Assembly (NCBI GenBank): GCA_946699065.1
Contig: CAMPDV010001789.1
Location: forward strand, 1-64,000
Source: Loxodes magnus
Taxonomy: Eukaryota > Ciliophora > Karyorelictea > Loxodida > Loxodidae
Direction of reading: 5' to 3'
DNA: 64,000 bases
How positions within the stretch are numbered: position 1 is the stretch's first letter; each line of letters starts with the position of its first letter. The notes under the pieces were generated by a model. That model ran no database searches and was not told the DNA's origin. It worked only from the letters and a program-made list of their open reading frames with translations. This document shows positions 11,970 through 57,622 of the stretch, piece by piece. The translations under genes and the position numbers were made by a program.

Positions 11970-14327
11970 ATGAGGAACTAAAAAGCCTTCGCTTTCTTTC
12001 TTGCTCTTTGCTGTCTTACTGTAGTAGTTTACTTCAATATCATCACCTTTTAGAAAAAGACGAGTCCTTTGAAGATTGAGTAGATATAGCTGCCTTTGAA
12101 TATATCTCAAGAACTTAAAGTAATTGAAAAGGATGACAAATAAGTAAATAAATGAGAAACAACCTAAATAAAAGTTGAGGACTTTAAAGAAAAGAAGGCA
12201 AGTAAAATGCATATAAGTAAGTGGAAAAAAGATAGCATTTGATAATCTAAAAATATAACTAAAATTGCTTAAAGGAAAACCATCAACTAAGAGGATCAAA
12301 AATAAAATAAAATAGTAAAGCATAAATGAAAAACTAATACTTATCAGGTAAAAAAGTCAAATAAAACTGGAAGCTATTAGTAGAAAATTGGTAAATAAGA
12401 AAGTACTAATTAAAATTAAGTTGGAGTTAGAATTAATTAAAATTAAGCATTAGCTTAGAAAATTTAATTACTTAATCCTTTGCAAAAATGAAGGTAGAAA
12501 GTAGCTGATTAAAATAAGTTTTTAATAAGCTTAAAGAAAAACTAGCAATTTATAATACATGGACCTTTCCGCTCCTTTGACTTTCCTGAGCTATATATTT
12601 CTTTATGAGTTAAATTCAACTTTAATAACTTAGAACTTTAAAATAAAATAAGCTCTTAAAACAATATCAATAAGAAAATACTTGCTGGATAACAAAAGTA
12701 CCAACACTTTGCTATTCTAGGAAATAAAATGGTAGGCTGTGATTCCTTTAGCTATACTTGGGGCTATTTCTTATATCTTGTGTATTCTTCTAATCAAAAA
12801 TGAACTATTACACTTGAAACTGGATCTGATAGAGGATGCAGATATTATGATACTTAGATTGAAATAAAATAAGATTAATGATACAATATCTAGTTAGTGT
12901 TAACAGCTTTAGGAACTTCTTTCTTTGATGTATAAGAAAACTTTAATAGCCCAAAAGCTTAAATAAAAGTAAATGATAAATTGATTAATATAGATGATTA
13001 GGATTATTATAGACTAATGTAAACAGGAATAAGGTTTAGAATAGGAGCTTAAGTAGTAAAGAAATATCATCCAGAAATAGGGAATAATGAGGTAGTAGGA
13101 AACCTTAATCCATTAGAATTTAAGGGCTTTTATTTTTCTACTTAATATAAACTCTTAGATTCTAATTCGGAAACTATTTCCTTCAACTCTATACTAGAAT
13201 TCCGCAAAAAAATGACCTTAAAGGGAAAATATTATGCATTTTTACCAAGCAAAGAAGGTTAGAATTTTTATCTTTAAAATGCATATAAAATGGGCAAATA
13301 TCATATTGGATAGATTACCAAGACTAATTTTCTTTAGATGGCTTGAGATGGAAGAGTATGTCCTACTTATAGTTTCAATTAATGATATCCTGAAATTTAT
13401 GAATAAATTAAACTAGAATATCAAGCATTAATATAATAATATAAACTAAATAGAGAAGAAATCTATCCTATAGTAATGCCTGCTTATAAGAACCATAACA
13501 TTTTAAATGAAACTTTATCACATATAGAAAGAGCAAATAGAATAAGCTAAACTATTATAATTATTTCTTAAGATGGTAACTCAACTGAAGTTTAAGAAGT
13601 AATAAATTAGTTTAAAAATAGAGGAATTTTAAATATTATTCATGTAAAACATCCTAAAACAGAAGCTCCTTATGAGTTTAAAAGATAAAATAAAGATGGA
13701 GGGTTCCAACGTGCCTCAAATGCTTTTTTCTTATTAAATCTTACTTTTGAACATTTAAAAGCTAAGTCAGCGTTATGATGTGAAGATGATGTTGATTTGT
13801 CAGTAGACTTTTTTGAGTTTAGTAAATGAATAAATAGAGAGTTTATCCATAATAATAGATTTGGAAAGAGAATAGCTGCTGCATCAATAACAAGTTATGC
13901 TAAAAATTTGACTAAAATTTAATCTTTGTATCAAGTGTGATTCGATAAACCTATGTTGCATTGAAATTTTATACTTCCAAATTACATTTGAAAGGAACTA
14001 AAAAGCGTATTCAACGGTTGTGATTGATCTCTAACAGCATTTTGACATTTTAACTAGAATTTGAGAAAAACTTTTGTAAGCCCTGTAATTCCTAGAGGAA
14101 AGCATATTATATGAAGTCACAATGAAAGTATTAATTCTAAAGTTTTTAGCTCTGAAAGAATGCAAAAACTAGAGCAAACAACAAAAAACTTAAAGTTAAT
14201 AAACTTTCCAGTGAACTACAAAGATGTTCAGCCTCATGTAATTCTTCAGTATAATAGTACCACTTAGAAAGCATCTTTTACCTTTTCATGGGATTATCTA
14301 ATAAAAGTTTATAAAAAGACTATTTAA
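11970..14327 (+). CDS. type II membrane LamG-GT13 glycosyltransferase (intact, plus strand)
   Basis: 785 residues without a frame change. The start ATG is followed by Arg-Asn-Gln-Lys and a hydrophobic signal anchor at residues 6-24 (FAFFLALCCLTVVVYFNII), as expected of a Golgi type II enzyme. A Lys/Gln/Asn-rich stem follows. A LamG-like domain begins at about residue 197 (HGPFRSFDFPELYIS), with ETGSDRGC and FRIGA blocks. The catalytic domain resembles GT13 (MGAT1/POMGnT1): PIVMPAYK, then IIIISQDGNS, the metal-binding WCEDD (Glu605-Asp607), CDWSLTAFWH, and IPRGKHI. The Trp codons in WCEDD, CDW and FWH are TGA. The family transfers GlcNAc in beta-1,2 linkage; the acceptor here is unknown. The four aligned minus-strand paralogs end at a TGA after Tyr-Lys-x-x-Ile; this copy has TAA there. 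If TAA is only sense, translation would run on to about 14,625. Confidence 0.85.
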
Positions 14328-18984: not shown

Positions 18985-19215
18985 ATGTAGGTATATCTTA
19001 AAACTTTAACTAATAGAGTTATCACTTTGGAAGTAGAATGTTCAGATACTATAGAGACAGTTAAGCTAAAATATTAAGAAGTGGAAGGAGTTTGTGTTGA
19101 GTAGCAAAGGTTAATTTTTGCTGGGAAATAGCTAGATAATGATAAAACTCTATCAGATTACAATATAATGAAGGAATCTACTATTCATGTAGTATTAAGA
19201 TGTACAGGATGCTGA
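18985..19215 (+). CDS. ubiquitin-like protein ending in Gly-Cys (plus strand)
   Basis: Exactly 76 residues, the length of ubiquitin, from ATG to TGA. It reads MQVYLKTLTNRVITLEVE at the start and QQRLIFAGKQL, then LSDYNIMKEST, further on. It keeps Lys6, Lys27, Lys29, Lys48 and Lys63, and the Leu8-Ile44-Val70 binding patch. Position 11 is Arg, and the loop around residues 36-38 has lost its prolines. The C-terminus is Arg-Cys-Thr-Gly-Cys, so the Gly76 needed for E1 activation and isopeptide bonding is Cys. Gln2 and Gln49 are TAG, Gln31 is TAA and Gln40 is TAG, which fixes TAA/TAG as Gln. It is a single unit, not a polyubiquitin head-to-tail array or a ribosomal fusion. A convergent relative ends 742 bp away. 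Confidence 0.9.
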
Positions 19216-19956
19216 GAAAAGATATTATTCAAAACTTAAATCTGCTTATTTATTAATCTCCTTAGATAGAATATCCTTCAAATATACATTTTACAATAAC
19301 TAATATTTGATAATTCATTAAGTCTAGATAGAATTATGATATCAATAAGATTTTATTAATTCTTTATTGGAATCTAAACTAAAACTAATGTATTAGCTAT
19401 AAACTTAATCTTCATATTTATATAAAATATAATATACTAAAATCTTGTAAGCTTTTATTTAAAAGCTAATTAAGAGAAAGATCTTGAATGAATAAATAAA
19501 TAATAATTTAATTATCTAAAAAAGAAAAATTAGCTATAGTTCTTAATTAATAAGTCATTAATGATATTAGATTCTATAAATAAGCGATATTAAAATAAAG
19601 ATATATAAGATAATATATACAATTTGCTATTATTAAGAAATTATAAGCATTGAGTATTTAGAAAGGAATATCTCTAATTTAATCTTAATAGATAAAACTA
19701 TTATTTTAGTTTATAACTTATATAAAACAAAACTATCTACACTTTAAAATTTGTAGAGTAACTTATGATATATAAATAGTTAAAGACACTAGCTTTTTTA
19801 TATAAGTGTAACTAGAAATTTATAAATATTTCCTATTTTAAGGTTTTAAAACTCTAATGTATTAAGCTTTATCTTTGAGTAAACATAGTAAAGAAAAAAA
19901 GGGACTAATTTATTGAATATAAAAGAGTAAAATATAAGCTAAATAAAAATAAATAA
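19216..19956. other. spacer between the two convergent ubiquitin-like genes
   Basis: 741 bp of AT-rich sequence. I see no gene and no obvious inverted extension of the flanking ubiquitin genes into it. Confidence 0.4.
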
Positions 19957-20187
19957 TCAGCAGCCACTTAATCTTTTCACTATATGTATAGTTGATTCTT
20001 TCTAAATATTGTAATCACTCAAAGTACGTACATCTTCTAACTACTTTCCAGCAAAAATTAATCTCTATTCTTCAATAGGAACTCCTTCTTCATCTTGAAT
20101 TTTTTCTTTTACATTCTCAATAGTATCTGAAGGTGATACATCCAGTGTGATTGTGGCACCAGTTAGTAATTTAATAAATATCTACAT
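19957..20187 (-). CDS. ubiquitin-like protein ending in Gly-Cys (minus strand)
   Basis: 76 residues from ATG at 20,187 to TGA at 19,957. It begins [17 protein letters not shown] and contains [26 protein letters not shown] and LSDYNIQKEST. This copy is closer to canonical ubiquitin than its neighbour: it keeps Pro19 and Pro37, and Lys6, 27, 29, 48 and 63, while positions 11 and 33 are not Lys. It ends Lys-Arg-Leu-Ser-Gly-Cys, so residue 76 is again Cys, reached independently of clear differences in the rest of the tail. In classic ubiquitin the tail is RLRGG. Gln2, Gln41, Gln49 and Gln62 are TAG. A normal conjugation role is doubtful; a non-conjugated signalling domain or a thiol-based attachment is speculation. 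Confidence 0.9.
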
Positions 20188-21072
20188 TTTGTTTTATATA
20201 TTTACAAAGAACTAAATACACAAACACTTAATTTATCAGTGAGTATTATCTAAACTAATTTACTTTTGATATAACAGAATTTGCCAATATTAGTTTAAAT
20301 GTTTGTTTCTTATTAAATTTTTTCTTGCTTATAATTAATCTAAAGATGTATTAAGAAAGATATCTCCTACTAACTAATTGTTCTAAGAGTATTTTCATAA
20401 GTTTATATAATAGTTCTACTTTATTAAATGATTAAGTTAAGCTTGCAAATATTTATTATTAACTTTATGTTTCAATTAAATTAACTAAAATGTATAAACT
20501 CTAACTGAAGACTAGCTTGTATAAGAGTTATTCTTTATAATATGAATTTATTCAAAAGTTTGTACTAGATATTTGTAAAAAGTATTTATAGGCTATTGTA
20601 TAAGCATATTGTAGTGATCGTAAGCATATTGAATAAACTTATTAGTCATATAAAGAAATAGGTTGCTTTAATATCACTTTATAAAGTAACTTTACATCAT
20701 TTCATTATTTAGTCCATTTCTTATTATTATTTCAAACTATATCCCTTAAAACTGTTTGTCATACACTAAATCATGATACTCTAATATACCAAAAACTAAA
20801 AATTTACCAAATAACAACTAAAACTCAGCATTAGTTATAAATAAATAGAAAAGTGATGATCCATTTAAAATATTACCAATCTCTATAAAATACTCTAAAA
20901 GATAATTTAAAATAGGGACACTTTATAAATAAAACTTAATTAAGAAATCTATTAAATTGTTAAAAGTATTTAATATATAATTATTAGAATAAATTCATAT
21001 AGTCAGCTATATTTAATTATTTAACTTATTAAATTTAAATTCTAAATTTTATTATTAGAGTCTAAGAATGTG
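20188..21072. other. AT-rich spacer
   Basis: No supported gene seen. Confidence 0.35.
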
Positions 21073-22467
21073 TCAACTAGTCTACGAGCTTACTTTGTTG
21101 TAAATAGGGTTTTGAAATTCATTCTTGATCCATACTCCTTGCTATTCAGTTCCATCTTTTTTCTTTAATATTCCTTAGCCATTTTTAATGTTTTCAAATC
21201 ACTATCCTTCATATATATCACCATTTTTATATCAGTAAGTTCCTTACCCTTATCTCTAATCTTGTACTCATTAACCTTCATATTTATCTCCATTGCTATG
21301 CTTTAATATTCCATATCCTTGTTTTTTATTTTAATCGAAGTCTCCATCATAAATATCTCCACTTTAATAATATAAAATTCCTTTTCCTTATTTTTTGTCT
21401 TATTCTCATTTTCCTTCATATTTATCCCCACTACTATACTAGTATACTCCATATCCTTCTTTTTTATTCTAATCAAAGTCTCCATCATAAATATCTCCAT
21501 TTGAGTAATATAAAATTCCTTTTCCTTATTTTTTGTCTTATTCTCATTTTCCTTCATATTTATCTCCACCACTATACTTGTATACTCCATATCCTTCTTT
21601 TTTACCTTAAACAAAATCTCCTTCATAAGTATCGCCATTATAATAGTAAAGAGTTCCTTTTCCTTGTTACTTATCTTGTTCCCACTATCCTTCATATCTT
21701 GAACCACTTATTCATTTTATTATTCCATATCCTTGCTTTTTGCTCTCGACAAAGTTACCTTCATATTCATCTCCACTTTAGTATTATATAATTCCTTTTC
21801 CTTATTTTTCATCTGCTTATCATTATCCTTCGTATTTATCACCGTTAACTCACTTGAACTTTCCCTGACCCTACTTTTAATTTTAGAACCATTCTCCATC
21901 GTAAACTTCTCCATTACTATAATAATATACTCCTTTTCCATGCCTTTCATCTTCAAATCATTATCCTTCAAATTTATCTCCATTTTAGTGCTTGTAAATT
22001 CCATATCCTTATTTCATATTTTCGACAAATATTCCTTCAAAAACATCACCATTATAATAATAAAGGAACCCTTTACCTTATTTATTATCTTCTAATCATT
22101 ATCCTTCAAATCTTGTTCCACTGCTGTATTCATAAATTCCGTATCCATGTTTTTTACCTTAGACGATATTACCTCTGTAAATATCCCCATTTTCATATTA
22201 CTTAATATCACTATCCTTTATTTAGCTTTTTAAGTATTCTGCGCTAAAATTTCCATCATCTTAAATTATTTAAACTTCTTAGTGATTTATTTACCCTACT
22301 TGTTCTATTTACGTCTGATTTGCTTCTTTTTACTTTTAATCTTCTTTTATTTCCTCATTTTACTGATTTACATTTTATTAGTGAGACTGTGAGATATTCA
22401 TTCCTTCGCTTATTTATTATTTAATTTCTTCTATTTCTTCACCTTTAAAGCTCGATGAACGCCTCAT
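21073..22467 (-). CDS. MORN-repeat protein, 464 residues
   Basis: A single uninterrupted frame from ATG at 22,467 to TGA at 21,073. About 110 residues of Gln/Glu/Asn-rich N-terminal sequence come first. Fifteen MORN repeats of 23 residues plus a degenerate sixteenth follow, with cores such as GDKYEGQW, GDIYDGDF and KQGKGILYY. MORN repeats form elongated beta-hairpin stacks used in membrane, phosphoinositide or cytoskeletal attachment, and ciliates have many of them. Trp in the YEGQW motif is usually encoded by TGA and the preceding Gln by TAA, so the motif fixes the genetic code. Repeats in the middle (about 21,340-21,600) are nearly identical at DNA level, so units have been duplicated recently. 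The final TGA follows Gln-Thr-Ser and lies well after the last Trp-TGA. Confidence 0.92.
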
Positions 22468-22717
22468 TATAACGTAACTGATAGATACTGATAATTATTT
22501 AACTATTTCTATTAAATTAAAGTTAAAGTTTATTCTTTTAATTCTCTTATCTCATATTAGTTTAGTGTAATCGCATAATACATTTAGTAACAATAGCTTT
22601 GTCTAAATGATATAATTAAAGTTTACTTTTATCTTAAAGTCTGCTATATAAATAAATTAGCTCTAATATATCCTATATTTATCTGTTTTATTTTTTTTAA
22701 TTAAATTGCTTTGCTCA

Positions 22718-23208
22718 TTGTTCGAAGGTGAGCAACAAGGTCATCTTCATCAGAGGTTGGGGAAGTTAAGTACCCATAATCGACTTTATGTCTTCCTCTG
22801 CTTTGGTTTGACCTCGAGACATAAGATTCTTAGACCTTCGACACTGACTATTTTAATTTTTAATTCTGGAACGAAAAAGAAATAATATTGTGAGCTTCAT
22901 CAGAGGTGGGGAATTTAAGTATCCATAATTGACACATGTCGTCCTCTGCTTTGGTGATGCAATGAGACACAATCCTGCCCTGTCCTTGGACCTCCAGCAA
23001 GTATTAAAGATTACGAGTATTCTAAAATTATATCAGTATTGAATATTTTTATCAGTACTGAATAATTATACAAGTTGAACAAGGTTTATCAGTATCTGAT
23101 AATTTTATCAGTAAGAAACATTCTTGTCAGTATGAAACAATGTTTTAAAGAGCTGCGCACCAACGAGAGTGCTACGCGCTCTATAATAAAATTTATTTAT
23201 TTATTATT
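22718..23208 (-). repeat. structured ~520-bp repeat element, copy 2 (inverted)
   Basis: Reverse-complement copy of 5,641-6,170 with the same order: two related folded units, the TACTGATA-rich zone, the hairpin and the TTTATTATAG/AATAAATAAA end. Differences from copy 1 are scattered single bases and a short deletion in the TACTGATA zone. With copy 1 it forms an inverted pair whose hairpin ends face outward, bounding about 17.5 kb. Confidence 0.8.
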
Positions 23209-24007
23209 TATTTGCTTTAGAATAATTGCTAGCTAATTATTTAGAACTTTTATTACTAAAATCTTGCAACTATCAATATTACAAGCATTGCTTATTAAAA
23301 CTATCTACTAAATTATTTCTTTTTATGCATAAACAGCAAGTTGTAGCAATCCATAAAAATAAAGGGAAAATATAACAAAATTTAGGTTTAATTTAATTTA
23401 ATTTAGATAGTTAAAGTTTCACTTAAGCTAAATTAAACGAAACTAAAATTGATTTATACTTGCATTAGAAAATAAAATGATTTATCAAATCTATTTTTAT
23501 GAATTAATGTAAGAAAATATAATTCTTAAAGCTATTCAAATATAGAAGGAAGATTCTTAAGTTATTATATTAAAATACTCTTTATAATCTATATTTATAT
23601 ATAATTCTAAATTTACTAGTAATTATATAACTTATTCACTTTACTACTAATTTATATAATTTTATCTAAAAACTGAGGAAAAGTTTTAGAACTTAAAGAA
23701 TAATTAAAATTATGCTTTTAAATTTTTGGTATTAATGATAAAATGAAATATAATTGAATGGCTAAATTTAGAAATATAAATTAAGAATTAAATGAAAATT
23801 AGGTATAATAGCTAATTACTTAAGCATCTGCTGAGCTAGTATAAAGTTTATTTAATTTTACTTAATTTTAAGTTATTTAGATTGCTTTATTTACATTGTC
23901 ATTATAGCATATTTTATTCTAGGATGCTCTTCACTTATGTATTTATATAACATGAACTTTAAAATAAGCAAATCAAATAATTTAATTTATTTTGTTTATA
24001 TCTTCAT
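23209..24007. other. AT-rich spacer
   Basis: No supported gene; long A/T tracts follow the hairpin end of repeat copy 2. Confidence 0.35.
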
Positions 24008-24280
24008 ATGAAAAAATTAAGCATAGGAATTCACTTAAATGTTTATTTTCTAGAAAAATTGATTACAAGTAAAATAAAATTGAGATTCAAAACTAATAAT
24101 TAGCTTTCTTAAATCTAAGCATAAGGGATTAAGATTATATTAATACTAGAATTTAGTAATAAATTAATTATAGTTGCTAAGTAATTAGTAAGGCTATTTA
24201 TAAAGAAACTTAGATTATTTAGAATCTATTTAGTTTAATAAATTTTATATAATATTCTTTTATTTTAATAAATTATATGA
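24008..24280 (+). CDS. possible small hydrophobic/basic protein
   Basis: A 90-residue frame from ATG to TGA, beginning MKKLSIGIHLNVYFLEKL. Composition is only moderately protein-like, and there is no homology support. Confidence 0.2.
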
Positions 24281-24607
24281 GATTATAAGCTATTTCTTAT
24301 TTATTAAATATATACCATATTAGATAAATCCCTTTAACAGAATCTTAATTGTTTTTATTATTAAGCAACAATATGTGAAATATAATCTAAGTTGATTATA
24401 TATTATTAGTAGCAATGCTTTATAAGAAAATATTTTAATTAAAAATATAAAAATGGTGTAATTTAATAAAATAATGAATTATAATAAATTAATAAAGTAA
24501 TCTATTATATAATTTATATTTCTTTGCTGTTCTAAAATGCTATATATATGCTTAAAGTTAAACTAAGACTATTATTATATTTTTCTATTTTATTTAATTA
24601 TAATAAA

Positions 24608-25560
24608 ATGGCTTCTAAGAAATAACAGAACTTTGAACAAAACATTTAAACAGGAAAATTCTCTAAAAAATAAAAAAGCGAAATAATTACAATGAGTGAA
24701 AGTGAGAAATATGATGATATGACGAAAATTAACCACTTGGAAATCCAGAATTAAAAAAACTTCCGACACAAACTCAAATAGAAATATTATCTAAGTCATT
24801 AAAAGAGTTTATGTTTAAAAATAGATACCTCACTGATAAAGTAGAAAAATTAGAAAAACTAATAACGTCTTTACTTGAGAAACAATATTAATAATCATAA
24901 GAAATAGAAAACAAACTGGAACAAAGAATTCTTTAAATTTAATAATAAATTCAGGTTACGCCATTTTCGTTTTAACAGAATTAATCAGATCCTATGAAAA
25001 TAGAAAATGAAACCTCAAATTGAAATAAACAGTAAACGTTTATTTAAAATAAGTAGTAAATTTAAATTAAATAAGTGTTACAGGAATAATAGTTTAAAAG
25101 AAGAATAAAATGCTACGTGTGCAATAAATAACACCAATGAAAATACTGCTACTAACTAAGCGAAATTTAAAGAAAGAATAAATAAGATATTTTTAGAAAA
25201 CTATTTAGGATATATCCAACATAAAGCGGAAAAATTTATAGAAAAAAATTCTTTAATTCAAATCTTAATCCTTGGAGAAATAATTAGGAACGCTAAATGC
25301 AAGACCAAAACTATTCCGAATATTAAAAGGATGGTGCACTAATGAAGTGCTAAACCGCCTAACTAAGCTTAGTAGGAATTCAAGACAAACTAATAGAGAC
25401 AAGCTTATAGAATAGGTCAGATGGCTGATTACTAAGGCTTTAACAAGGCTTTTTAACTTTTAACTTTTTTTTAGAAAACTGTATAAAATTGAATAAATGA
25501 ACAATGACTTTTAAATATTTTTATTCAATATCTAGACAATTATTTTTAGAAGAAATTAAA
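24608..25560 (+). CDS. coiled-coil / Cys-His knuckle protein of the DPM-x-IE family (copy 3)
   Basis: It opens with MASKKQQNFEQNIQTGKFS, then a helical region (YLTDKVEKLEKLITSLLEKQ), the family motif SDPMKIENETS, and a knuckle-like Cys-x2-Cys-x3-His-x4-Cys (CYVCNKQHQWKYC, whose Trp is TGA). The distal part reads GTLNARPKLFRILKG and NEVLNRLTKLSRNSRQTNR. It shares layout and motif with the two minus-strand genes at 2.8-4.9 kb. The reading frame is not continuous over the span, so the gene is either interrupted by very short introns or decayed. A coil plus zinc knuckle also occurs in Gag-like proteins of retroelements, but no reverse transcriptase or integrase is seen nearby, so I leave the family open. 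Confidence 0.45.
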
Positions 25561-25890
25561 TTTAAAGGCTCGAGAATATAAAATATTATTTTATTCATGT
25601 TCATTAAAATAATCAAATATTTTCATTTAATTTGGAATATAATTTACAAATTATTTTTTTAAATAAGCTAACTGTATAAAATAGTAAAATAATAAGAAGA
25701 ATAAAATAATAGTTATTTTTTATTAAGATGCGTCTGTATTTAATTGATAAAGAAAGTGTTTTCTTAATCTTTTATGATCACTTTAATCATTTTAAATGAT
25801 TTTATGATGTTGTAAAATCAATATTAAAAGCAATGAGTTTAAAAATAAATAGAATTATATTAAGTTATATTTAAAAAAGTTTAAGAATCT

Positions 25891-28277
25891 CAAATTGTTC
25901 CTTTATAAATTCTCGTTAAAAAATCCCAAGAAAAAGTATAAATTACTCTATATACGTTTGCTTGCTACTAAAATATTACCTAAGGCTCTATATCTTCATA
26001 ACTCACTGAAAAGTCAATTAGTTATAAATTATCTGTTAAACTTTCAAAATTTTTTATTCTCTAAGCATCTAAATACTGTGTGTGGATACTTTCCTTACTT
26101 TGAAAATCTATGTGCTTTCCTCTTGGAATCACAGGGCTAATAAATGTTTTTCTCAAGTTTTAATTAAAATGTCAAAATGCTCTCACTGGTCAATCACAAA
26201 ATACGAATATACTCTTTAGTTCCTTTCAAATATAATTTGGAAGAATAAAATTTCAATGCCAGTCAGGCTTTTCTAAATTAACTTCATATAAAGATTATTA
26301 ATCAGTTAAAATTTTTGCAAAGCTAGTTTTTTGTACTGCAGCTATTCTCTTTCCATATTTATCATTATGGATTATCTCTCTATTTACTCATTTACTAAAT
26401 TCGAAAAAATCTATTGTTTATTAAACATCATCTTCACATCATAAAATTGACTTAGCTTTTAGATACTCAAAAGTAAGATTTAGTAAGAAAAAAGCATTTT
26501 AGGCACATTAAAATTCTCCTATTTTTTTCTTTCTTTAAATATTGTAAGTAGTTTCTGTTTTAGGATGTTTTGTATGAACTATATTTAATATTACTCTATT
26601 TTTAAACTCATTTATTACATCTTAAACTTCTGATGAGTTACCGTCTTAAGATATTATTATAATAGTCTAGTTTATTCCATCTGCTCTCTCCATATGCTAT
26701 AAAGTATTTTTTAAAATAGCATGTTTTTTATAGACAGGCATTACTATCGGATAGAGTTCTTCTGTATTTAACTAAAATCTTTCTATAAATACTTCGTACT
26801 ATTTTTTTACTTATTCATAAATTTTAGGATATCATTAGTTGAAAGTATAAGATCCACATACTCTCGTATCTCAAATCATCTAAATAAAGTTAGACTTAAC
26901 TACTTATCCATAATGATATTTTTTTATTCTATACACATCTTAAAGATAAAATTTCTATCCTTCTTTACCAGGTAAAAAAGCATATTATTTTCCCTTTAAA
27001 ATTAGTTTTTAATAAAATTCTATGATCAAATTAAACTAAGTAGTTTCTTAGATCTAACTTAACGATTTATACTAAGTAGAAAAGAAAAAGTTCTTAAACC
27101 TAAGGGATTAAGATTTCCTACTATTTTATTACTTCCTACTTCTGGATGATATTTCTTTACTACTTAAGCTCCTATTCTAAACCTTAATCCTGTTTACATT
27201 AGTCTATAATAATTCTAATTATCTATTTAAACCTTTTTATTGTTTACTTGTATTTAAGCTTTTGGTTTCTTAGAATTTTTTACTTTATCAAAGAAAGTAC
27301 TTCCTAAAGCTGTTAAAACTAGTTAAATATTATATCATTCATCTTATTTTATTTCCGCCTAAGTATCATAGAGCTAGCATCCTCTATCAGATCCAGTTTC
27401 AAGAGCAATAGTTCATTTTTTATTAGAAGTATGGACAAGATATAAGAAATATCCTCAATTATAGCTAATAGTGTCGCATCCTTCCATTTTATTTCCTAGA
27501 ATAGCAAATCTTTATTATTTTTCTTATTCAATAAATATTTCTTCACTTTTATTATTTTCAGAATTTATTTGATTCTAAAGTTCTAGGCTACTAAAATTAA
27601 ATTTCACTCAAATAGATAAATAAAGTTCGGGAAAATCTAAAGAGCGAAAAGGTCCATGAATAATAAAATATTGATCCTTATTTAAGCTTATTTCAAATTT
27701 ATTTTTATTTATTTACTAGCACTTTATAAGTTGCTTGGCTGAACTTCTTAAGTTAAAATAAATTCCTTATTTTAATTTGTTTCATTTTAGTTTCTATCTC
27801 TTTAAATGATTTTGTTTCACTGTTTTGAATCTGTTTAGTTAGTAATTTAAATATTTTATGAGTTTTATGGTTATTTAATTTGATATTCTTAAATATATTT
27901 TTCTTCCTAAGATTTGTTTGATTAAGGTTCTAAAGTTTAAGCTACTAAAGTGTTAGACTGTATAGTTACTTTCTTTTTTATTTTCTTTTTGATAATATTT
28001 TTACTAGTTTACTTTAATTTAGTGTTATTAGGTTTTATTTCTTAGCTAGTGTTTATAATCTTTATATCTGATTAGTTTATCTATTTTTAGTCATAGTTTG
28101 CTGCTTATCTGGTATATCTATTTCAATCTCAGATATTGGAACTTTATTTTCTTCTAAATCTACATTTTCGTTAGATGAATTCGAAGTTAGATATTAAGAG
28201 GCAATAATGAGGAGATAAATAAAAATTGCAAGAAAAGTAGTGGAAATGAAGAAAGAGGTAATTTTAGAAATATGCAT
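25891..28277 (-). pseudogene. LamG-GT13 glycosyltransferase copy with frame disruptions
   Basis: The N-terminus is well preserved: ATG at 28,277 followed by HISKITSFFIST and a signal anchor, then an acidic stem. The LamG-like part and the catalytic part (LWCEDDVQQTIDFF, CDWPVRAFWHFN, VIPRGKHI, and a tail ending Tyr-Lys-Gly-Thr-Ile before TGA at 25,891) are complete. Against its paralogs there is a one-base deletion near 27,100, in the stretch after the LNPL block of the LamG-like domain. There is a second frame change somewhere in the stem at about 27,780-27,850. The first is hard to explain by an intron, so I call it a recently damaged paralog; a sequencing error or ribosomal frameshift is the alternative. 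Residues after the deletion are still well conserved, so any loss is young. Confidence 0.7.
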
Positions 28278-28714
28278 TTTATAAATATTTGATTACATTA
28301 ATTAATAACTAAGTATTAGCTAAGTACTAAGTAGTTAAGTAACTATTACTTGGAAAGCTATAAAGCTTAATTTTATAAACAAGGATTGATATTGTAATTT
28401 AATAAATAAATTATTTTATTGATTTAGATAAACAAGTATAGTAATAAGCTTATAGCTTTATTTATATAGGCATATTATTAAAGTTAGAGTTTTAGTAATT
28501 TATGAATAGATTAATTTATTATATATTAAGGATCTGTTTTATTTAGGTATTTATTTCATGGTATATTAATATAAAGGATTTAAGTTACTATTATTATTTT
28601 ACTTTATAGAGTATTTCTACTATTTTTAGTATTAATTTCTTAGTATTAAACTTTCACTTTTCATAAATTTGCTTATCTAAGTAATTTAAACTAACAATCT
28701 TTCTTTTTAGCTTT
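28278..28714. other. AT-rich spacer upstream of the glycosyltransferase copy
   Basis: Runs of A and T; no gene seen. Confidence 0.35.
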
Positions 28715-28801
28715 TCAGTTAGTAATTTTTTTAATTTTTTCTTCCCTTTCTGTGATTACTTCAAATATAATACCTTTTTCTCTTTCTTCTAGTTTCATCA
28801 T
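28715..28801 (-). CDS. short exon-like frame
   Basis: 28 residues, ATG-ATG-Lys-Leu-Glu-Glu-Arg-Glu... to TGA, strongly charged and unlike the surrounding spacer. It is too short to judge alone and may be the last exon of a gene or chance. Confidence 0.25.
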   Translation of the reverse strand: MMKLEEREKGIIFEVITEREEKIKKITN

Positions 28802-28974
28802 CTTATGATCGAATAAATAAAGGGAAAAATTACGTAAAAAAGAGCTTAAATATATTGCTTAAGATATATATTACTTTTAATATAGCAAGCAACATAATAT
28901 ATAAGTAGATAAAACTTTTATTTAATATAAATTATTAATTTCGCTTATCTGAGATATTAAAGGTATTAAAAGCA

Positions 28975-29508
28975 ATAAATAAATAAATTTTATTATAGAG
29001 CGCGTAGTACTCTCGTTGGTGCGCAGCTCTTTAAAAAAAATATTTCATACTGACAAGAATGTTTCTTACTGATAAAATTATCAGATACTGATAAACCTTG
29101 TTCAATACTGGTATAATTATTCAGTATTGATAAAAATGTTCAATACTGATATAATTTTAGAATACTCGTAATCTTTAATACTTGTTGGAGGTCCAAGGAC
29201 ATGGCAGGATTGTGTCTCATTGCATCACCAAAGCAGAGGATGACATGTGTCAATTATGGGTACTTAAATTCCCCACCTCTGATGAAGCTCGCAATATTAT
29301 TTCTTTTTAGTTCCAGTATTAAAAATAAACGAAACCAAGTCAAGCCAACGTCGAAGGTCTAAGAATCTTATGTCTCGAGGCCAAACCAAAGCAGAGGAAG
29401 ACATAAAGTCGATTATGGGTACTTAACTTCCCCAACCTCTGATGAAGATGATCTTGTTGTTCACCTTCGAACAACTATGGCGGTTTTAAAGAATATATAT
29501 AATAAAAT
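28975..29508 (+). repeat. structured ~520-bp repeat element, copy 3
   Basis: Direct copy of 5,641-6,170, nearly identical including the hairpin, the TACTGATA zone and both folded units. In the hairpin the lower stem reads GCG against CGC, where copy 1 has TCG, and the inner GCAC is GTAC against GTGC (still pairable). Sequence to the right differs from copy 1 immediately after TATAATAAAA, so this marks the element's right boundary. Confidence 0.8.
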
Positions 29509-29700
29509 GGATATAGGCTGTGGTCAGGAAAGCCAGTAAGTAATATTATGCAGTGAATACTGCATCTCCAGTAACTTCGCATTAGATGTCATCACGGGAA
29601 AGGGTAATCAAACTTGGAAGAGACATGCATAACTTGCCCGAGGGTTCTTGCTAGCAGTATGAAAGTTTGACTGACGGGCCTCTAATGACTTAATAATTAA
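29509..29700. ncRNA. compact GC-rich structured RNA candidate
   Basis: A sharp GC-rich island of about 190 bp directly right of repeat copy 3. It contains a perfect hairpin ATGCAGT-GAAT-ACTGCAT (29,549-29,566), a GGCT...AGCC hairpin at its left end, and an 8-bp pairing TCAAACTT with AAGTTTGA enclosing about 48 nt, itself enclosed by GTCAT/ATGAC. I found no protein reading and could not match it to U1-U6, 5S, SRP or RNase P from memory. Strand is unknown. Confidence 0.4.
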
Positions 29701-29824
29701 TTCTTATTTGGATCTTATTCAAGAATAATCTTTTTTAAGTAGATTCCCATTTGGAGAAACTGATTTGACTCATTAGACTACTAGAACTTTATCATTTTTT
29801 TCAATAATTATATATTAATATTGA

Positions 29825-29866
29825 AAGAGCTGCGTTCCAACGAGGTTTCACACAGCGGTCTTTCTG
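29825..29866 (-). repeat. partial inverted copy of the repeat's terminal hairpin
   Basis: AAAGAGCTGCG followed by CCAACGAG matches the hairpin end of copy 2 in the same orientation, that is, inverted relative to copy 3. The other arm is changed but still pairs (AAAGA with TCTTT). It bounds a unit of about 0.9 kb with copy 3. Confidence 0.5.
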
Positions 29867-30088
29867 GTATTAGAAAGTTTTAACAGATAGTTCTAAATTA
29901 GAATAGTGTAAGTCAGAGCAAAATTTGTTTATTAGCTACTTTAGTTCAGATTCAGTCATACTATGCTGCTTTAGTTCGATTTAAATCTACTCTAGGTTTT
30001 AGTTAAAACTCTTAATAGCAAGGTTTTGCATTATAAATCTGAAAATAAACTTAGCAATAAATTTTTATTTTAGAAATATTAGAGATTT

Positions 30089-30500
30089 ATGGTCTATTAT
30101 TTAAAGTCAATCATAGACTTTATAAAAGATGCTAAAGGAAGATTTAAAATATTCATTATGATAAAATACAAAGTAGAGAGAAATTTTTAGTATAAGCTAG
30201 TTTAAGATTATTTAGCTCATAAGAATATCTATTCAAATGAGAACTGAATAAAGAAGCACAAGAATGCAAGCATGAAATTTATAATAATTATAAGGCCTAA
30301 AATCCTACATTTATACCTTTTAAGAAATTGAATAATTTTAAATTTTAAATTGCATAATAACTAATATAATTTTAAGCATAAAGAGTAAGCATATTCATTT
30401 TTAACTAAAAAGAATAGCAAGTTAAAACTCTTTTAGCTATTTAATAATAATAATAATGACAATCAACAACTTATTTTAACTGAAATTTACAAGCAAAAGG
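30089..30500 (+). CDS. possible protein of unknown function
   Basis: ATG followed by VYYLKSIIDFIKDAKGRFKI and LVQDYLAHKNIYSNENW; Lys/Asn-rich. No homolog known, and the end is not resolved. It is tentative because all frames are open. Confidence 0.25.
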
Positions 30501-31885
30501 TATATAAGTATCTAAGAAAGAATGATGAAAATATTATAATATAAAATCTTAATTTATACAACTACTTTAATTTTTACCTTTCTTTAGTTTTTACTTAATT
30601 AATAAAAAGCAAAAGGAAAATTTAGAAATATATATTGCCTTTTAATTATTTTTTAATGAAAATAAAGCTAGTTCGTCTTATTCTTTTCATATTGAGAATA
30701 TTACTAGATATCACATTTATATAATACTATACTTAAAGTATAAATCTAACCTTATTATACCTAAGTGAAAATTAAATAAGGTAGGTAATATTTATAACAG
30801 CAATGTATTTACTTTCTTGTAACTATTTTATTTCTATTATGTATTTTATTAACTTTATAGTGTATTTATGTATTTTTATAGCTCTATGCATCAAGCATTT
30901 ACTTTATATGAAATTTCTTAGTATATTGATGACTGCAATGATATTTATTTCTAATAAACTTAATTATTAAAATCAAAGGTATTTATTTTTCCTAGATTTG
31001 TTGGATATATTCCTTTATTTTTTCTACATATTTCTTATTAGCTTTTTATCAAATCAACATCGCTTAGCTTATTCGTTTTCAATATGATATGATCAAGTAA
31101 TAATTGTTTGTATTTTTAAGTTGAGAAGTGAACAGAAAAAAGTAAATTTAGCTAATTTAATAATTTTATGTCTTATCCCTTGACTTTATTTATAATAATG
31201 ATCTCTTGCATTTCTCATATGATAACAGTGTGCTTGTTACTGTTATATCTACTAGTTGCTTTAATTCAAAATAGTACCAGATTAAAAAAAAGCTACTAGT
31301 TTATTTGCTATTCCATAAGCAAAGCATTTTAATTCCTTAAATATTTGATATCACTAATGAGATAACTAAAGCACCTAGCCTAAGCAAACAAATTTTTTAT
31401 CTAAAGTTGAAATAAAAAAAATGAATATCAAGGAAATTTTTATAGCATTGAAAAGCTTCGAATTGAAATTATATGCAGATAATAAAAAAGAGAAAAGTTC
31501 TTTTGTTTTCACAGTTGATATATCAAAATCTTTATAAACTCGAATCACACAGAAGTAAAATCTATAAGGATCTAGAATCTAATTTAGCTTTAATAATTAT
31601 AAATTTGTAGAGTAGTAATGAGATGTGATATTACTAGATTCACTTGATATAGATAATTATGCTAGCTAAAGAAGCTATTTAAATAAATATCTTAGTTTTT
31701 TGTTTGATTTTAGATTAAATAAAATATAAGTATAATAATTTGCATCTCCTTTATATATTATTAATAAAATTTAGATGTAAATTTTAGACTTTATATTTGC
31801 TTTGATTTATGTTTTATGTATTATTATTTATCTATTTACTATACATACTTATGTAGTTAATATCTAAAAATTAAATGATTTATAA
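30501..31885. other. AT-rich region without a supported gene
   Basis: Long A/T runs; nothing recognised before the stop of the large MORN gene. Confidence 0.3.
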
Positions 31886-34800
31886 TCATTGAAGTTTGTT
31901 TTGACTAACTAAGATATGCTCTTCTTAGAAAATAAGTTGGATATCTTTATCCTCTTTCTAATCTTGAAGAATATTTTTGTCTCCCTTTATTTCTATACTA
32001 TCACCTTGCTTGATTTTTATTGGTTCCTTTTCATGTTTTTAAAGTTCTTATAGTTTTCTTTATTATATTTCAACTAATGCTAAGTTCTAATCTTTTTCTC
32101 ATTATTTAATTTCTTCTTTACATTATTCTTAAATAATTTTTATTTCTTCATAAGTTTTGCTTTTAAATCCCTACTTTTAACTTTAAACCTATTATCCTTC
32201 ATTTAAATCTTCCTTTACAGTTATTACATCTCTATTTGCTTATAATTTGCCAACTTCTCAATTTCCCTCATATACATCTCCTCTTTATGATTTGAAGATT
32301 CCTTATCCGTTAATTTAATTATTACTCCATTCTCCTTTGTATATATCTCCATTACTGAAACGGTAAATTCCTTTTCCTTGCCTTTTATCCTCTGATCAAT
32401 AACCTTCATAATAACTTAAATCATTATAATACATTATTCCTATGCCATGCTTTTTGTCTTTAAATCAGTTCCCTTTATAGACATTCCCATTTGAATAATA
32501 AAGTATGCCTTCCTAAAATTTTTAATTTTCTTCTCAATTACCTTCATATTTATCTTCATTAGCATAGGTTTCAACTCCAAACCCTCATTTTTATCCCTTA
32601 TATCAATTCCCTTAATATTAATTTCCATTAATGCTTTTTAAAATTCCTTATCCATTCTATTAGTCATTATCAAATTATCCATCATATTTATCACCATTTT
32701 TGAAGGATTAAATTCCATATCCATATTTTTTATCTTCTTTAAACTCTCCTTCATAAATATCTCCATCTACTTAAGTTAAAATTCCTTTGTACTTTTATCC
32801 ATTTAATCATTTGCCTTCAAAATTTGTTCCATCTAGTTATTTTAGAATTCCTTATCCATGCTATTTATTTCCCATCCATTTTCCTTCATAAATATCTCCA
32901 TTATAATAAATTAATTTTCCTATCCCTTATCTTTTATTCTATATTCATTAACCTATATACTAACTTCCGTCCTAATATTTCATACAACCTAATCCATGCT
33001 ACTTTCCTTATATCCAGGTACCTTCATAAACATCTCCATTCAAGTAAATAAATTTCCCTTTGCCTTACATTAAGTTATTTGAAAATTCTCCTTCATATCT
33101 GCCACCGTTATTAATAATTCATATTCCAAATCCATTCTTTTAATTAGAAAGTAAAGACCCTTCATAAAAGTTTTATTATTAGCTGTAAAACATTCCTTTA
33201 CCCTCTTTTTTATCTTTAAACCACTATCCAACATATCGGGCACCATTTTAATAAATATAAATTCCTACTCCATGTCTTAGTTTATTTAAAATCTCACCTT
33301 CATATAAATTCCCGTTTTAATATTTAATTTTTTATTTATTTAAATTTCCTTTAAATCACTCTCCATTATATTCTATTCCATTCTTAAATACATAAGTTCA
33401 TTTTTCTTTTATTTCTCCAGTTACTCATTCTCCTTCATATTTATCTCCATTCTAGTAAATTAAAACACCTTTACCTTATTGCATGTCATTAACCCAATTT
33501 CCTTCATACTTGTTTCCGTTTTTATACCTTAATATTCCTCATCCATGCTTTTGTTCATTTTTAAACTCTCCTTCATATTCATCTCCATTAGCATAATAAT
33601 ATTTTTCTATTGCTTGTAGTTTATCTTAGTTTCATTATCCTTAATACTTATTTCCATTTTTGTATTTATAGATTCCATTGCCATTCTTTTAATCCATTTG
33701 CCATTATCCTTCAAATTGGTCTCCATGATTAAAATAAAATATTCCAAATCCATTTTTTTAGTTATTTATTCATTCTCCTTTATATCGGTCTCCGTTTGCA
33801 TAATAATATACTTCAATCTCTTTTAGATTATCTTAGTCTCATCTTCCTAAATATTTATCTCCGTTTTTTAACTTTAAGGTCCCACGACCATGTTTCTTAT
33901 TTTGGAGTCATTCACCTTAATATTTGTCTCCATTAGCATAATAAAATACTTATATAGCTAGCAATTAATCTTCGACTCATTATCCTTAATACTTATCACC
34001 ATTTTTGTATTTATAGATTCCATAGCCATTCTTTTTATCCTAAAATCAACTTCCTTCATATTCATCTCCGTTTTAATAGAATTAAATTCCTTAATCTTGC
34101 TTAAAGTCTTGGAATCATTTTCCTTAATACTTATCTCCATTCTAGTAAATTAAAACACCTTTACCTTACTTCATATCATTCACTCAATTTCCTTCGTATT
34201 TGTTTCCGTTTTTGTACCTTAATATTCCTCATCCATGCTTTTGTTCATTTTTAAACTCTCCTTCATATTCATCTCCATTAGCATAATAATACTTTTCTAT
34301 TACTGCCAGTTTATCATAAAATCATTTACCTTAATATTAATTTCCGTTTTTAAGATTGTAAATACCAGTACCATGCTGTCTATCCTTGTATCACTCGCCT
34401 TCAAACTTATCTCCGTTATGCAAAAACATCTGTCCTTTACCTTATTTAAGATCTTTAGCTCATTACCCTATATACTTATCTCCGTTTAGATAAGTATAAG
34501 ATCCTACTTTCTCCCTTGAGTTATTAAATCAAAATCCATAATATTTTTCTCCATTCTGATATAATTAAACACCTTTACCATTTCTCATATCTTCTTCTCA
34601 TTATCCAGTAAAGGCTTCTCCATTTATTTAGCAAAATTTTCCATTTCCTTACTTTTTATTCATGTATCATTCACCTTCATACTTATCTCCGTTTACATAA
34701 ATACAAGTTCCTTAGCCATGTTTTTAATTCTCTTTCCATTATCCCTCATAAAAGTAACGATTCTATTTTTAATAAGATCCGTATCCTTACCTTTTGTTCA

Positions 34801-35173
34801 TGTATCACTCCCCTTCGTACTTATTCCCATTTTGTAACTAATTAATTCCTTAGCCTTGCTTTTAGTCTTCTTTTCACTAACCTTCATACTTTGAACCATT
34901 TTAGTACAAAATTACACCATATCCGTTTCTCTTATTCTCTCTCATGTCCCCAAAGTAAATACTATTATCACTATAGAAATGAAATATTCTCTATCCCTAG
35001 CATTTATTATTCACCTATCTGCTCTCTTTTATATATTTCGTATACCTGCATTCATAAAATATCATGTTATCGAAGAAATACTAATTCATAGCTTCTTTCG
35101 AACTAAACAGCAAAATAATCTTTTACTCCTCTTGTCTAACTTTTTCACTTTTATGTCTCTTTTCTTCCTCCAT
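31886..35173 (-). CDS. giant MORN-repeat protein, 1095 residues
   Basis: One uninterrupted frame from ATG at 35,173 (MEEEKRHKSEKVRQEE) to TGA at 31,886 (ending VSQNKLQ). After about 75 residues comes an almost unbroken run of roughly 40 MORN repeats (to about 32,230), with cores such as GDKYEGEW, GDEYEGEF and HGWGILRY. Then comes an acidic, Gln-rich coiled-coil tail of about 110 residues. Dozens of in-frame TGAs sit at the Trp of the YEG-x-W motif. Blocks of several repeats recur almost identically (about 33,470-33,600 and 34,190-34,310), showing segmental duplication within the gene. Many repeats are degenerate (YEG replaced by Tyr-Gln-Gly). Such proteins act as extended scaffolds at membranes or basal bodies in protists; the specific role is unknown. 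Confidence 0.93.
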
Positions 35174-36415: not shown

Positions 36416-36910
36416 ATGAATTATTTAAAATCCACATAATTAAGAAGCTAGTTATAAGATACTAATCCATATTCTTTTTTACCAAAATTAAAAGAACAAT
36501 TAAGCTAAGACAAGCAATCTATACTTATAAAATTACCTTTTCTTCTTTAGGAATTGTAATAGATCTAAAGAACTCTATCATATTACTTTGATAACTCTAA
36601 TATAAAAGTTACTTTATCATACTCTTATTGATATCTTATGTATTCTTCTAGTTTAATAGGAATATAAGATATATTAGTACTCTAAGATTTACTCATTATA
36701 ATTATACTCTCATACTAACTATCAAATCTTTATTATAAACTTAGTCAGTTATATTCGAGAAGGTAGAAATACCTTAACAAATATCTTCATTATTTTAACT
36801 TGTATTAACTAAGAAGCTATATGAGATTGCTTTTATCATTTAAAGTAGGAATATAGATTGAAAAATGTATATAATTAAATAAAGAGTATAAAGCTTTAAA
36901 TATAATATAA
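36416..36910 (+). pseudogene. truncated paralog of the gene at 44,629
   Basis: Residues 5 to the end match the C-terminal half of the 44,629-45,795 gene almost perfectly (KSTQLRSQLQDTNPYSFLPK onward). Differences are few, and the sequence to its left resembles the upstream flank of that gene, so an internal deletion has joined an upstream ATG to the C-terminal half in frame. At the position of the other copy's terminal TGA this copy has TAA. It may be a remnant or a short expressed protein. Confidence 0.6.
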
Positions 36911-36924
36911 AAAGTTATAACTAA

Positions 36925-37175
36925 TTCAAATCTTTCCTTTGTATACTTTCATTAGAAAATCCCACGAAAAGGTATCTGTTGTTTTCAAAATTGTACTATC
37001 GAACTAAAGCAAAATATTAGACTCTTTATTTGTATATTTCACAAGATAAACTGTTAATTATAAAATTTAATGCTATTTTTTCTAGATTTTTATAGAGTGC
37101 AAGATTAAAACTTTCAGAGTGAACACTATCATTATGACTTCAAGTTGCATGATTTCCTAGATTTCTAGCATTTTT
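36925..37175 (-). pseudogene. C-terminal fragment of a LamG-GT13 gene
   Basis: The first ~250 bp match the 3' end of the glycosyltransferase at 45,811-48,285 at high identity (the stretch from the last Tyr-Lys segment back to the RGKH region), then similarity stops abruptly. Together with the adjacent truncated plus-strand paralog, it is the remnant of a duplicated convergent gene pair. Confidence 0.7.
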
Positions 37176-37890: not shown

Positions 37891-40800
37891 TCAAATAGAC
37901 CCTTTATAAACTTTCATTAGATAATCCCAAGAAAAGGTTTATTATTTTTTATAAGTAGTACTGTTGTAAAGAATTATCTAGGGCTAGATATCTTTATAGT
38001 TCACTGGAAAGTTTATTAACTTTAAGTTTTTTGTTGTTTGCTCAAGTTTTTGCATTCTCACAGAGCTAAAAACTTTAGAATGAATACTTTCATTGTGACT
38101 TCATATAATATGCTTTCCTCTTGGAATCACTGGGCTTACAAAAGTTTTTCTCAAATTCTAGTTAAAATGTCGAAATGCTCTTAGAGGTCAATCACAACCG
38201 TTGAATATACTTTTTAGTTCCTTTCAAATGTAATTTGGAAGTATAAAATTTCAATGCCACATAGGTTTATCGAATCACATTTGATGCAAAGTTTAAATTT
38301 TAGTCAAATTTTTAGCATAACTTGTTATTGATGCTGCAGCTATTCTCTTTCCAAATTTATTATTATGTATAAACTCTCTATTTATTCACTTACTATACTC
38401 GAAAAAATCTACTGACTAATAAACATCATCTTCACATCATAAAATTGACTTAGCTTTTAAATGTTCAAATGTAAGGTTGAATAAGAAAAAAGCATTTGAG
38501 GCACATTGAAACTCTCCGTCTTTATTCTAGCTTTTAAACTCCTAAGGAGTTTCAGTTTTAGGATGTTTTACATGAATAATATTTAAAATTCCTCTGTTCT
38601 TGAAATCATTTATAACGTCTACAACTTATGAAGAATTACCATCTTAAGAAATTATTATAATGGTCTAGTTTATTCCATCTGCTCTTTCTATATGTGATAA
38701 AGTTTCATTTAAAATATCATGTTTCTTATAAGCAGGCATTACTATTGGATAAAGTTCTTCCACATTAAGTTTAAATCTTTTTATAAAGGCATCATATTCT
38801 TTTTTGATTTATTCATAAATATCAGGATATCATTAATTAAAAGTATAAATTGGACATACTCTTCCATCTCAAACCATTTAAAGGAAGTTAGATTTAACTA
38901 TCTATCCGTAATGATATCTACCGATTTTATATACATCTTAAAGATAAAAATTCTAATCTTATTTTATTGGTAGAAATGTATAATATATACCTTTTATACT
39001 CAATTTTTTTCTAAATTAATTTATTGAATTTAAGGAAGCAGTTTCATGATTAAGTGCTAAGATTTTATATTAAGTAGAAAAATATAAGCTTTTAAACTCT
39101 AAAGGATTAAGATTTCCTACTATTTCATTGTTTCCTACTTCTGGATGATATTTCTTTACTACCTAAGCTCCTATTCTAAATCTTATAGCTGTTTACATTA
39201 GTCTATAATAATCCTAATCCTCTATTTTAATCAATTTATCATTTATTTTTATTTAAGCTTTTGGCTTTTTAGAGTTTTCTTATACATCAAAGAAAGAAGT
39301 TCCTAAAGCTGTTAACACTAACTAGATATTGTATCATTAATTTTGTTTTATTTCAATCTAAGTATCATAATAATTGCATCCTCTATCAGATCCAGTTTCA
39401 AGTGTAATAGTTCATTTTTGATTAGAATACACAAGATATAAGAAATAACCTCAGGTATAGCTAAAGGAATCACAGCCTTCCATTTTATTTCCTAGAATAG
39501 CAAAACGTTATTAATATTCTTTTTCAGTAGAGTTTTCTAAGCTTTAATTGGAAGACGATGATGTATTATTTTAAAAGATTAAGTCACTAAATTTAAACTT
39601 AACTCATACAGAAATATAGAGTTCAGGAAAGTCAAAGGAGCGAAAAGGTCCATGGATAATAAATTGTTAGTTTTTCTTTAAGCTTATTAAGAATTTATTT
39701 TAAGCAGCTATTCTATTTCTCTATTTTTAAAGGGGATTAAGTTTTTTATTTTTCTAATTTAAAGTTTTGCTTTAATTCTATCTAATTAAAACTTAAATTT
39801 AATTTTTCCCTTCTTATTTAACGATTTTCTAACTAATATCTTCAGTTTTATTTTACTTATTAGCTTAATATGTTTTATTTTTTTATTTATTTATTTTTAT
39901 TTTTCTTTAGTTTTGGATTTCTTAGTTAGTAATTTTCCTTTAATCAATTTATGATGTATTTTTATTAAATCCAAGACTATCATTTTTCCACTGATCAGCT
40001 CATATTTTGACTTTTTCTTTTTCTTTATTATATTCTTCCTCTGTATAAGCTACTTCTAATTCATTTTCTTTATTATCATCTTCCTCTGTATAAATTGTTT
40101 CTATTTAATTTTTTTTATTATCAACTTCCTTATTCTAAGCTGTTTCTAATCCACTTTCTTTACTATCATCTTCCTTCATCTAAGCTGTTTCTATTTAATT
40201 TTCTTTACTATCCTCTTCATTTGTCTAAGCTATTTCTAATCCACTTTCTTTATTACCCGCTTCCTTCATCTAAGCTGTTTCTATTTAATTTTCTTTACTA
40301 TCCTCTTCCTTCATCTAAGCTGTTTCTATTTAATTTTCTTTACTATCCTCTTCCTTCATCTAAGCTATTTCTAATCCACTTTCTTTATTACCCTCTTCCT
40401 TCATCTAAGCTGTTTCTATTTAATTTTCTTTACTACCCTCTTCCTTCATCTAAGCTGTTTCTATTTAATTTTCTTTACTATCCTCTTCCTTCATCTAAGC
40501 TGTTTCTATTTAATTTTCTTTACTATCATCTTCCTTCATCTAAGCTGTTTCTATTTAATTTTCTTTACTATCCTCTTCCTTCATCTAAGCTGTTTCTATT
40601 TAATTTTCTTTACTATCCTCTTCCTTCATCTAAGCTATTTCTAATCCACTTTCTTTATTACCCTCTTCCTTCATCTAAGCTGTTTCTATTTAATTTTCTT
40701 TACTACCCTCTTCCTTCATCTAAGCTGTTTCTATTTAATTTTCTTTACTATCCTCTTCCTTCATCTAAGCTGTTTCTATTTAATTTTCTTTACTATCATC

Positions 40801-57210: not shown

Positions 57211-57622
57211 TTTTAAATTATAGTATTTAACTTTTAATAAATTCATCTTATTAAATTATATATATGTCTTCCCTTTTATCTATTTAGCTTAACTATATTC
57301 ACTTTCTCTTCCAACTATCCTGCTAGGAAGTGATAAGTCAGGGATTAAAAAGCTTTTAAAAAGTAACTGGTTAGTGGAAATTGCAAAGAAGGTATCTAAT
57401 TGATAGATATTTAGCACTTTTGGTAAGATATTTTAGCTCTTATCACTTAATTATTTAATTTATTTACCTATTTGGAGTTTTTCAAAAACTAGATAGGAAT
57501 AGATTTATAAGAGGAACAGTTGCTAAGCAAAACTATTTTTTGGTTATTTAAGCTTACTGTAATTAAGTCTATTATACCCTTGAATCAGGCTAAAAAGGAT
57601 TAATATTCTTATTAACTTTGAT

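Follow-up and report, generated by a model that had tools for sequence, protein, structure and literature searches.

TAA, TAG and TGA are sense codons in a stretch of Loxodes magnus DNA with a probable karyorelict-type genetic code

The genes contained in 64,000 nucleotides of Loxodes magnus DNA (assembly GCA_946699065.1, contig CAMPDV010001789.1, positions 1 to 64,000), referred to below as the window, were analysed for the meaning of the codons TAA, TAG and TGA. The window carries two ubiquitin-like genes, two genes composed of MORN repeats and a local family of glycosyltransferase (GT) paralogs, all reported in Table 1. Each of TAA, TAG and TGA has a sense meaning in this DNA: inside genes TAA and TAG are read as Gln and TGA as Trp, each assignment being supported by evidence which does not presuppose it. 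With a probability of about 0.83, the window belongs to the nuclear genome of a protist using the ambiguous, context-dependent code of karyorelict type (NCBI table 27), where the label karyorelict is based on stop codon and composition, not on phylogeny. Window G+C is 24.5%, and only four open reading frames of at least 120 aa, the longest of 420 aa, are found with the bacterial code. Gene models were built without any intron being needed; a codon-usage gene finder, which reports segments of high coding likelihood and is prone to capture by repeats, was used as a guide only. Sequences described as masked are those in which in-frame stop codons were set to X before profile search or alignment.

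Table 1. Genes and gene copies in the window, listed by position, with their ends and main profile scores.
Feature	Position	Strand	Details
GT paralog F, older fragment (aligned part)	1012..1587	-	Some sites with TGA or TAG in the other copies have TGG or CAA here
GT paralog A	11970..14327	+	TAA at homologous end 14325; next in-frame TGA 99 codons on; Pfam GNT-I 25.6 bits
Ubiquitin-like gene	18985..19215	+	76 codons and terminal TGA 19213-19215; TAG at Gln2, Gln40, Gln49; TAA at Gln31
Ubiquitin-like gene	19957..20187	-	76 codons and terminal TGA 19959-19957; TAG at Gln2, Gln41, Gln49, Gln62
MORN-repeat gene 1, 15 repeats	21073..22467	-	Pfam MORN 126.5 bits masked, 254.3 under table 27 (21088-22260); PDB MORN1 E 1.8e-46 masked; coding-likelihood segment 21091-22446
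GT paralog B, domain part only	25890..27703	-	1-nt frameshift near 27100-27060; terminal TGA 25892; GT domain without Pfam match at E 0.1
MORN-repeat gene 2, 37 repeats	31886..35173	-	Pfam MORN 196.2 bits masked, 379.8 under table 27; coding-likelihood segment 31943-35179
GT partial copy (3' end)	36426..36980	-	300 nt match the end of paralog D with 98% identity; homologous end 36928 is TGA
GT paralog C	37891..41544	-	Anchor, stalk with 15-aa repeat, GT domain; terminal TGA 37893
GT paralog D	45811..48285	-	Terminal TGA 45813
GT paralog E	54781..57246	-	Terminal TGA 54783

The two ubiquitin-like genes, oriented towards each other, both align to human ubiquitin without gaps. All eight of their in-frame TAA and TAG codons (one TAA, seven TAG) fall on Gln sites of the human protein; with 6 Gln among the 75 residues compared, the chance probability of this placement is 1.2e-5 per gene and about 1.5e-10 for both. 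The original prediction had placed TAG at Gln2 and Gln49 of both genes and TAA at Gln31 of one, and these positions are seen in the alignments, the TAA in the forward copy, together with the further TAG codons listed in Table 1. The Pfam ubiquitin profile matches the forward gene with 84.1 bits when masked and 90.1 bits under table 27, and the reverse gene with 91.9 and 99.8 bits, respectively. No internal TGA is present in either gene. The last residue of ubiquitin serves conjugation; both copies end in Gly-Cys, not Gly-Gly, right before the TGA (19204-19215, forward; 19968-19957, reverse), and so lack this terminal Gly.

The meaning of all three codons was inferred from the glycosyltransferase family. 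Six copies, A to F (five copies and the older fragment F), were aligned with stops masked, the frameshifted paralog B being entered as two pieces; each codon was then left out and the residue suggested by its column-mates was scored. By this procedure TAA scores highest as Gln (18.0, next residue 6.5), TAG as Gln (8.4, next 0.6) and TGA as Trp (28.8, next 0.6), while 40 of the 41 sense codons represented by at least 8 columns each were correctly recovered, the only miss being ATG. TGA and TGG occur together in six columns, and TAA or TAG together with CAA or CAG in ten. Sixteen columns hold at least three Trp codons, and TGA is present in 14 of them; outside these sixteen, a single TGA is found in one column.

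Two candidate meanings of TGA were rejected on the same alignment. The Tetrahymena code (table 6), in which UGA is a stop only, is ruled out by TGA in 14 of the 16 conserved Trp columns and by the 8 in-frame TGA codons that paralog A has in its GT domain. Selenocysteine or Cys was rejected because TGA swaps with TGG, whereas no column with TGA holds a Cys codon. In line with the earlier claim that a standard or Tetrahymena-code annotation of this DNA would be wrong, either of these codes, or the bacterial one, would disrupt the genes listed in Table 1.

The family appears to resemble GNT-I (GT13). Against a cut-off of 25.4 bits, the Pfam GNT-I profile gives 25.6 for paralog A, 22.3 for D, 22.0 for E, 19.4 for C and no match for B, so that only one copy just passes it. 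Reading TAR (TAA or TAG) as Glu lowers the score of paralog A from 25.6 to 22.0. PDB searches with one glycosyltransferase copy returned nothing, chondroitin synthase alone was matched in a profile search (E 0.0018), and a loose PDB search matched GNT-I at E 0.25, a weak alignment with a supporting role only. In this alignment TAA stands, in five of five copies, on the Gln of an SQD motif common with GNT-I, and the Trp of the motif WCEDD is opposite a Val of GNT-I. TGA does encode the Trp of WCEDD and of CDW, as predicted, in all five copies reaching these motifs; since GNT-I has Val, however, WCEDD provides no argument from family conservation, and the columns in which TGA and TGG are exchanged are the better evidence. 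The copies reach far beyond the interval originally considered (18985-35173), being located at 12-14, 26-28, 38-41, 46-48 and 55-57 kb, with the fragment at about 1.0-1.6 kb.

In the MORN genes 52 repeats were counted, ignoring position 5 in the count. At position 5, the Trp of YEG-x-W, 29 repeats have TGA, nine TGG, ten a Phe codon and four another codon. The repeats hold 37 TGA codons in all; 29 are in this one of 23 columns and the other eight are spread over six columns. Reading TGA as Cys or Arg clearly lowers the profile score of gene 2 (280.5 and 267.3 bits), and Cys that of gene 1 (186.5). The earlier statement that this Trp is mostly TGA agrees with the codon counts, but the MORN profiles fail to separate Trp from Phe.

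Ten gene ends were listed, eight of which are anchored by homology, two in the ubiquitin-like genes and six in copies of the glycosyltransferase family. Codon 77 is TGA in both ubiquitin-like genes, and TGA follows the common motif YKGxI in paralogs B, C, D and E and in the partial copy (36928). The anchored ends are thus seven TGA, one TAA and no TAG. G+C is 25-30% in the coding parts and falls to 10-22% in the 60 nt located 3' of the eight ends, and the nearest Trp codon is TGG, 12 or 19 codons upstream, in all seven ends with a Trp codon within 30 codons, MORN gene 1 included. Published data describe UGA as the sole stop of Loxodes magnus, with coding UGA and UAA depleted in about 20 codons before the stop, a mean G+C of 18.6% in 3' untranslated regions (UTRs), and introns of which 93% are at most 25 bp long, with a mode of 17 (PMC11441545). 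A single-cell transcriptome study of karyorelicts likewise reports UGA as stop and UAR as Gln (PMC6935857).

The ends bear on the choice between tables 27 and 28, which the original prediction had left open. In the Condylostoma-type code (table 28) each of the three codons has a sense meaning and is a stop as well; its sense meanings are those of table 27, and the TAA at the homologous end of paralog A would fit it. With TGA at seven of eight anchored ends, TAA at one and TAG at none, table 27 is favoured and is the better fit, on few ends, and table 28 appears improbable. The heading of the original prediction, that all three stop codons are sense codons, stands, but it misses the role of TGA as the usual stop.

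Codon usage was determined on 4830 codons, taken from the domains of paralogs A to F, most of the two MORN genes and both ubiquitin-like genes. Trp is encoded by 106 TGA and 28 TGG (79% TGA), and Gln by 222 TAA, 109 TAG, 58 CAA and 9 CAG (83% TAR). TGA accounts for 2.2% of all codons, and for 65 of 83 Trp codons in the paralogs alone; paralogs and repeats not being independent, these counts hold locally. In the literature, UGA makes up 0.042% of codons in Condylostoma and 0.120% in Parduczia (PMC4967479); no such figure for Loxodes was found in the excerpts of PMC11441545 consulted. Usage also bears on the syndinean code of Amoebophrya ex Karlodinium veneficum, which has the same assignments, with UGA consistently as stop (PMC6394959). 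In that organism UGG strongly outweighs UGA in 14 of 14 dynein alignments, and Gln is most often encoded by CAA (PMC6394959), the opposite of the preferences measured here, and this origin of the code is considered very unlikely.

Decay had to be excluded separately, because C-to-T changes produce the same substitutions as a reassignment. In a standard-code organism, decayed or deaminated copies, resembling the products of repeat-induced point mutation, could have had CAA, CAG and TGG turned into stops; the low G+C of the window and the repetition of the glycosyltransferase family would agree with this, and such decay would convert CAR to TAR and TGG to TGA. Such decay would also place TAG and TAA at Trp sites: the 16 Trp columns of the paralogs hold 64 TGA, 16 TGG and neither TAA nor TAG, and position 5 of the MORN repeats has no TAA or TAG either. 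TGA is absent from Arg-majority columns, a test of low power since CGA was seen only twice. The ratio of nonsynonymous to synonymous substitution rates (dN/dS) could be computed for 13 of the 15 paralog pairs and is 0.16-0.34 in these; the copies are under purifying selection, and this ratio, together with the exchange of TGA and TGG in six columns, indicates that they are not decayed genes. Moreover the same pattern is found in two ubiquitin-like genes identical at only 49 of 76 residues, and decay is hardly credible as an explanation.

Other reassignments, namely TAR as Glu (Blastocrithidia, table 31; peritrichs), Tyr (Mesodinium) or Lys, and TGA as Cys (Euplotes) or selenocysteine, keep high Pfam scores for ubiquitin and MORN, and MORN columns rank Lys above Gln, but they can be dismissed, as Gln outscores Glu, Lys and Tyr in both ubiquitin-like genes (forward 90.1 against 88.4, 83.8 and 81.4 bits; reverse 99.8 against 93.3, 91.4 and 89.2) and in MORN gene 2 (379.8 against 369.1, 330.3 and 219.7), Gln leads in the paralogs and at the ubiquitin sites, and no paralog column joins TGA with a Cys codon.

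Several observations weigh against a code of table 27 type with TAR as Gln and TGA as Trp. Scored on MORN columns, TAA is best read as Lys (3.4, with Glu at 0.4 and Gln at -6.5), as is TAG (Lys 12.4, Gln -4.0). For TGA, the Pfam MORN profile gives Trp 379.8 bits and Phe 387.0 in gene 2, but Trp 254.3 and Phe 244.8 in gene 1, and so cannot distinguish the two residues; the GNT-I profile does not separate Trp (25.6) from Cys (25.7) in paralog A. One variable paralog column, outside the sixteen Trp columns counted, combines two TGG with TAA, TAG and AAG. As to termination, paralog A has TAA after YKGxI, with no in-frame TGA for the distance given in Table 1; the anchored ends are small in number and come from related genes, and those of paralog D and the partial copy, at 98% identity, are not independent. 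The ends of both MORN genes were placed by us at TGA codons near the segment edges (21091 and 31943), with ATG 22467 and TGA 21075-21073 for gene 1 and ATG 35173 and TGA 31888-31886 for gene 2; having no homologous end, they are no test and were left uncounted. The seven TGG codons near ends are drawn from two gene families. TGA is used 18 times as much as in Parduczia. Finally, the window yielded no rRNA, tRNA, eRF1 or intron linking this DNA to karyorelicts, and tRNA and Rfam matches sought in it were none. For the end of paralog A, work by Seah and colleagues in 2022 is reported to indicate that UAA may terminate a small minority of transcripts in karyorelicts, which would fit.

Published work on such codes suggests how the karyorelict-type code could operate here. 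TAA and TAG would be decoded by cognate tRNA-Gln and TGA by a tRNA-Trp, with eRF1 prevailing at TGA only near the poly(A) tail of the mRNA; a short AT-rich 3' UTR and the scarcity of TGA in the last codons before the true stop would aid termination. In the sequence itself, TGA occupies the expected stop position, directly after the conserved C-terminus, in the ubiquitin-like genes and in most glycosyltransferase copies. In Amoebophrya and Blastocrithidia no UGA-cognate tRNA was found, UGA being thought to be read by a tRNA-Trp(CCA) with a 4-bp anticodon stem, which is also reported for Loxodes (PMC12005148); a search for tRNAs with UCA anticodon would for this reason be a poor test.

The code itself is already known from karyorelict ciliates; what stands out, and would interest a specialist, is how heavily TGA is used for Trp in this DNA. 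It is conceivable, if on balance unlikely, that the lineage uses UGA both as its regular terminator and as its majority Trp codon, with occasional termination at TAA and a load of context decoding far above that of the ambiguous codes compared here for usage (Condylostoma, Parduczia, Amoebophrya). An organism with such a code would serve as a natural test of the limit of ambiguity that position-dependent termination can bear. If TGA were the main Trp codon genome-wide, this would be a strong natural case for how ribosomes tell stop from sense by position, because most Trp residues would hang on that choice.

Further features of the glycosyltransferase family were noted. Read by eye, paralogs A, C, D and E of this local GNT-I-like family share an N-terminal hydrophobic segment and a Gln/Asn/Lys-rich stalk; the segment of paralog A looks like a type II anchor, followed by the stalk and a GT-A-like domain. 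The stalk of paralog C contains about 28 copies of the 15-aa repeat, encoded by an array of 45-nt units (40019-41273). An AlphaFold model of the glycosyltransferase has a mean predicted local distance difference test (pLDDT) of 33.6, and the conserved domain ahead of the GT part would be strand-rich only in this low-confidence model; Pfam searches with the N-terminal domain of the paralogs gave nothing or matches below cut-off. The segments 36426-36725 and 45311-45610 are 98% identical over 300 nt, the similarity extending to the 3' end of paralog D, and represent a recent duplication. The one-base frameshift of paralog B relative to the other copies could reflect a pseudogene or an assembly error. 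Searches for relatives found no match with exact DNA patterns in viral and genome contigs, with protein sequences in phages, or with peptide patterns in viral contigs; the peptide patterns, which included Gln and Trp, were probably back-translated with ordinary codons, so that relatives using a code like table 27 could be missed.

No Pfam family was found at E 0.01 by a six-frame scan of 1-12300 and 57000-64000 or in the three forward frames of 41548-45719; for three further candidate coding stretches, Pfam returned no match or only matches below cut-off. A dispersed repeat of about 540 bp is present at 5638-6180 and 28975-29512 on the forward strand and at 22718-23075 on the reverse strand, the matched pieces being 93-98% identical; it holds short tandem units with TACTGATA. 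It had no Rfam match at gathering score or E 5, and a 46-nt piece of it no exact match in viral or genome contigs.

Compared with known systems, the window is like the karyorelict code of Parduczia and Loxodes (table 27) in having TAA and TAG as Gln and TGA as Trp in the gene body and as stop at the end, like Loxodes in the AT-rich sequence 3' of the stop, and, as far as seven ends from two gene families show, like table 27 organisms in the use of TGG for the last Trp codon within 30 codons of the end. It differs from Parduczia, where the stop is UGA, in the share of TGA among codons (2.2% against 0.120%; PMC4967479), from table 27 karyorelicts in the one paralog ending with TAA, and from the published Loxodes magnus data in coding G+C (25-30% against 33.5%; PMC11441545). 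Condylostoma magnum (table 28) has the same sense meanings, but all three codons terminate there (PMC4967479), whereas here TAG is found at none of the anchored ends. Amoebophrya sp. ex Karlodinium veneficum shares the sense meanings and the UGA stop; UGG and CAA are preferred there (PMC6394959), TGA and TAR here. Blastocrithidia (table 31) likewise has TGA as Trp and all three codons with sense meanings, but reads UAR as Glu and stops at UAA (PMC12153298), unlike the ubiquitin-like genes of the window, in which every TAR codon stands at a Gln site.

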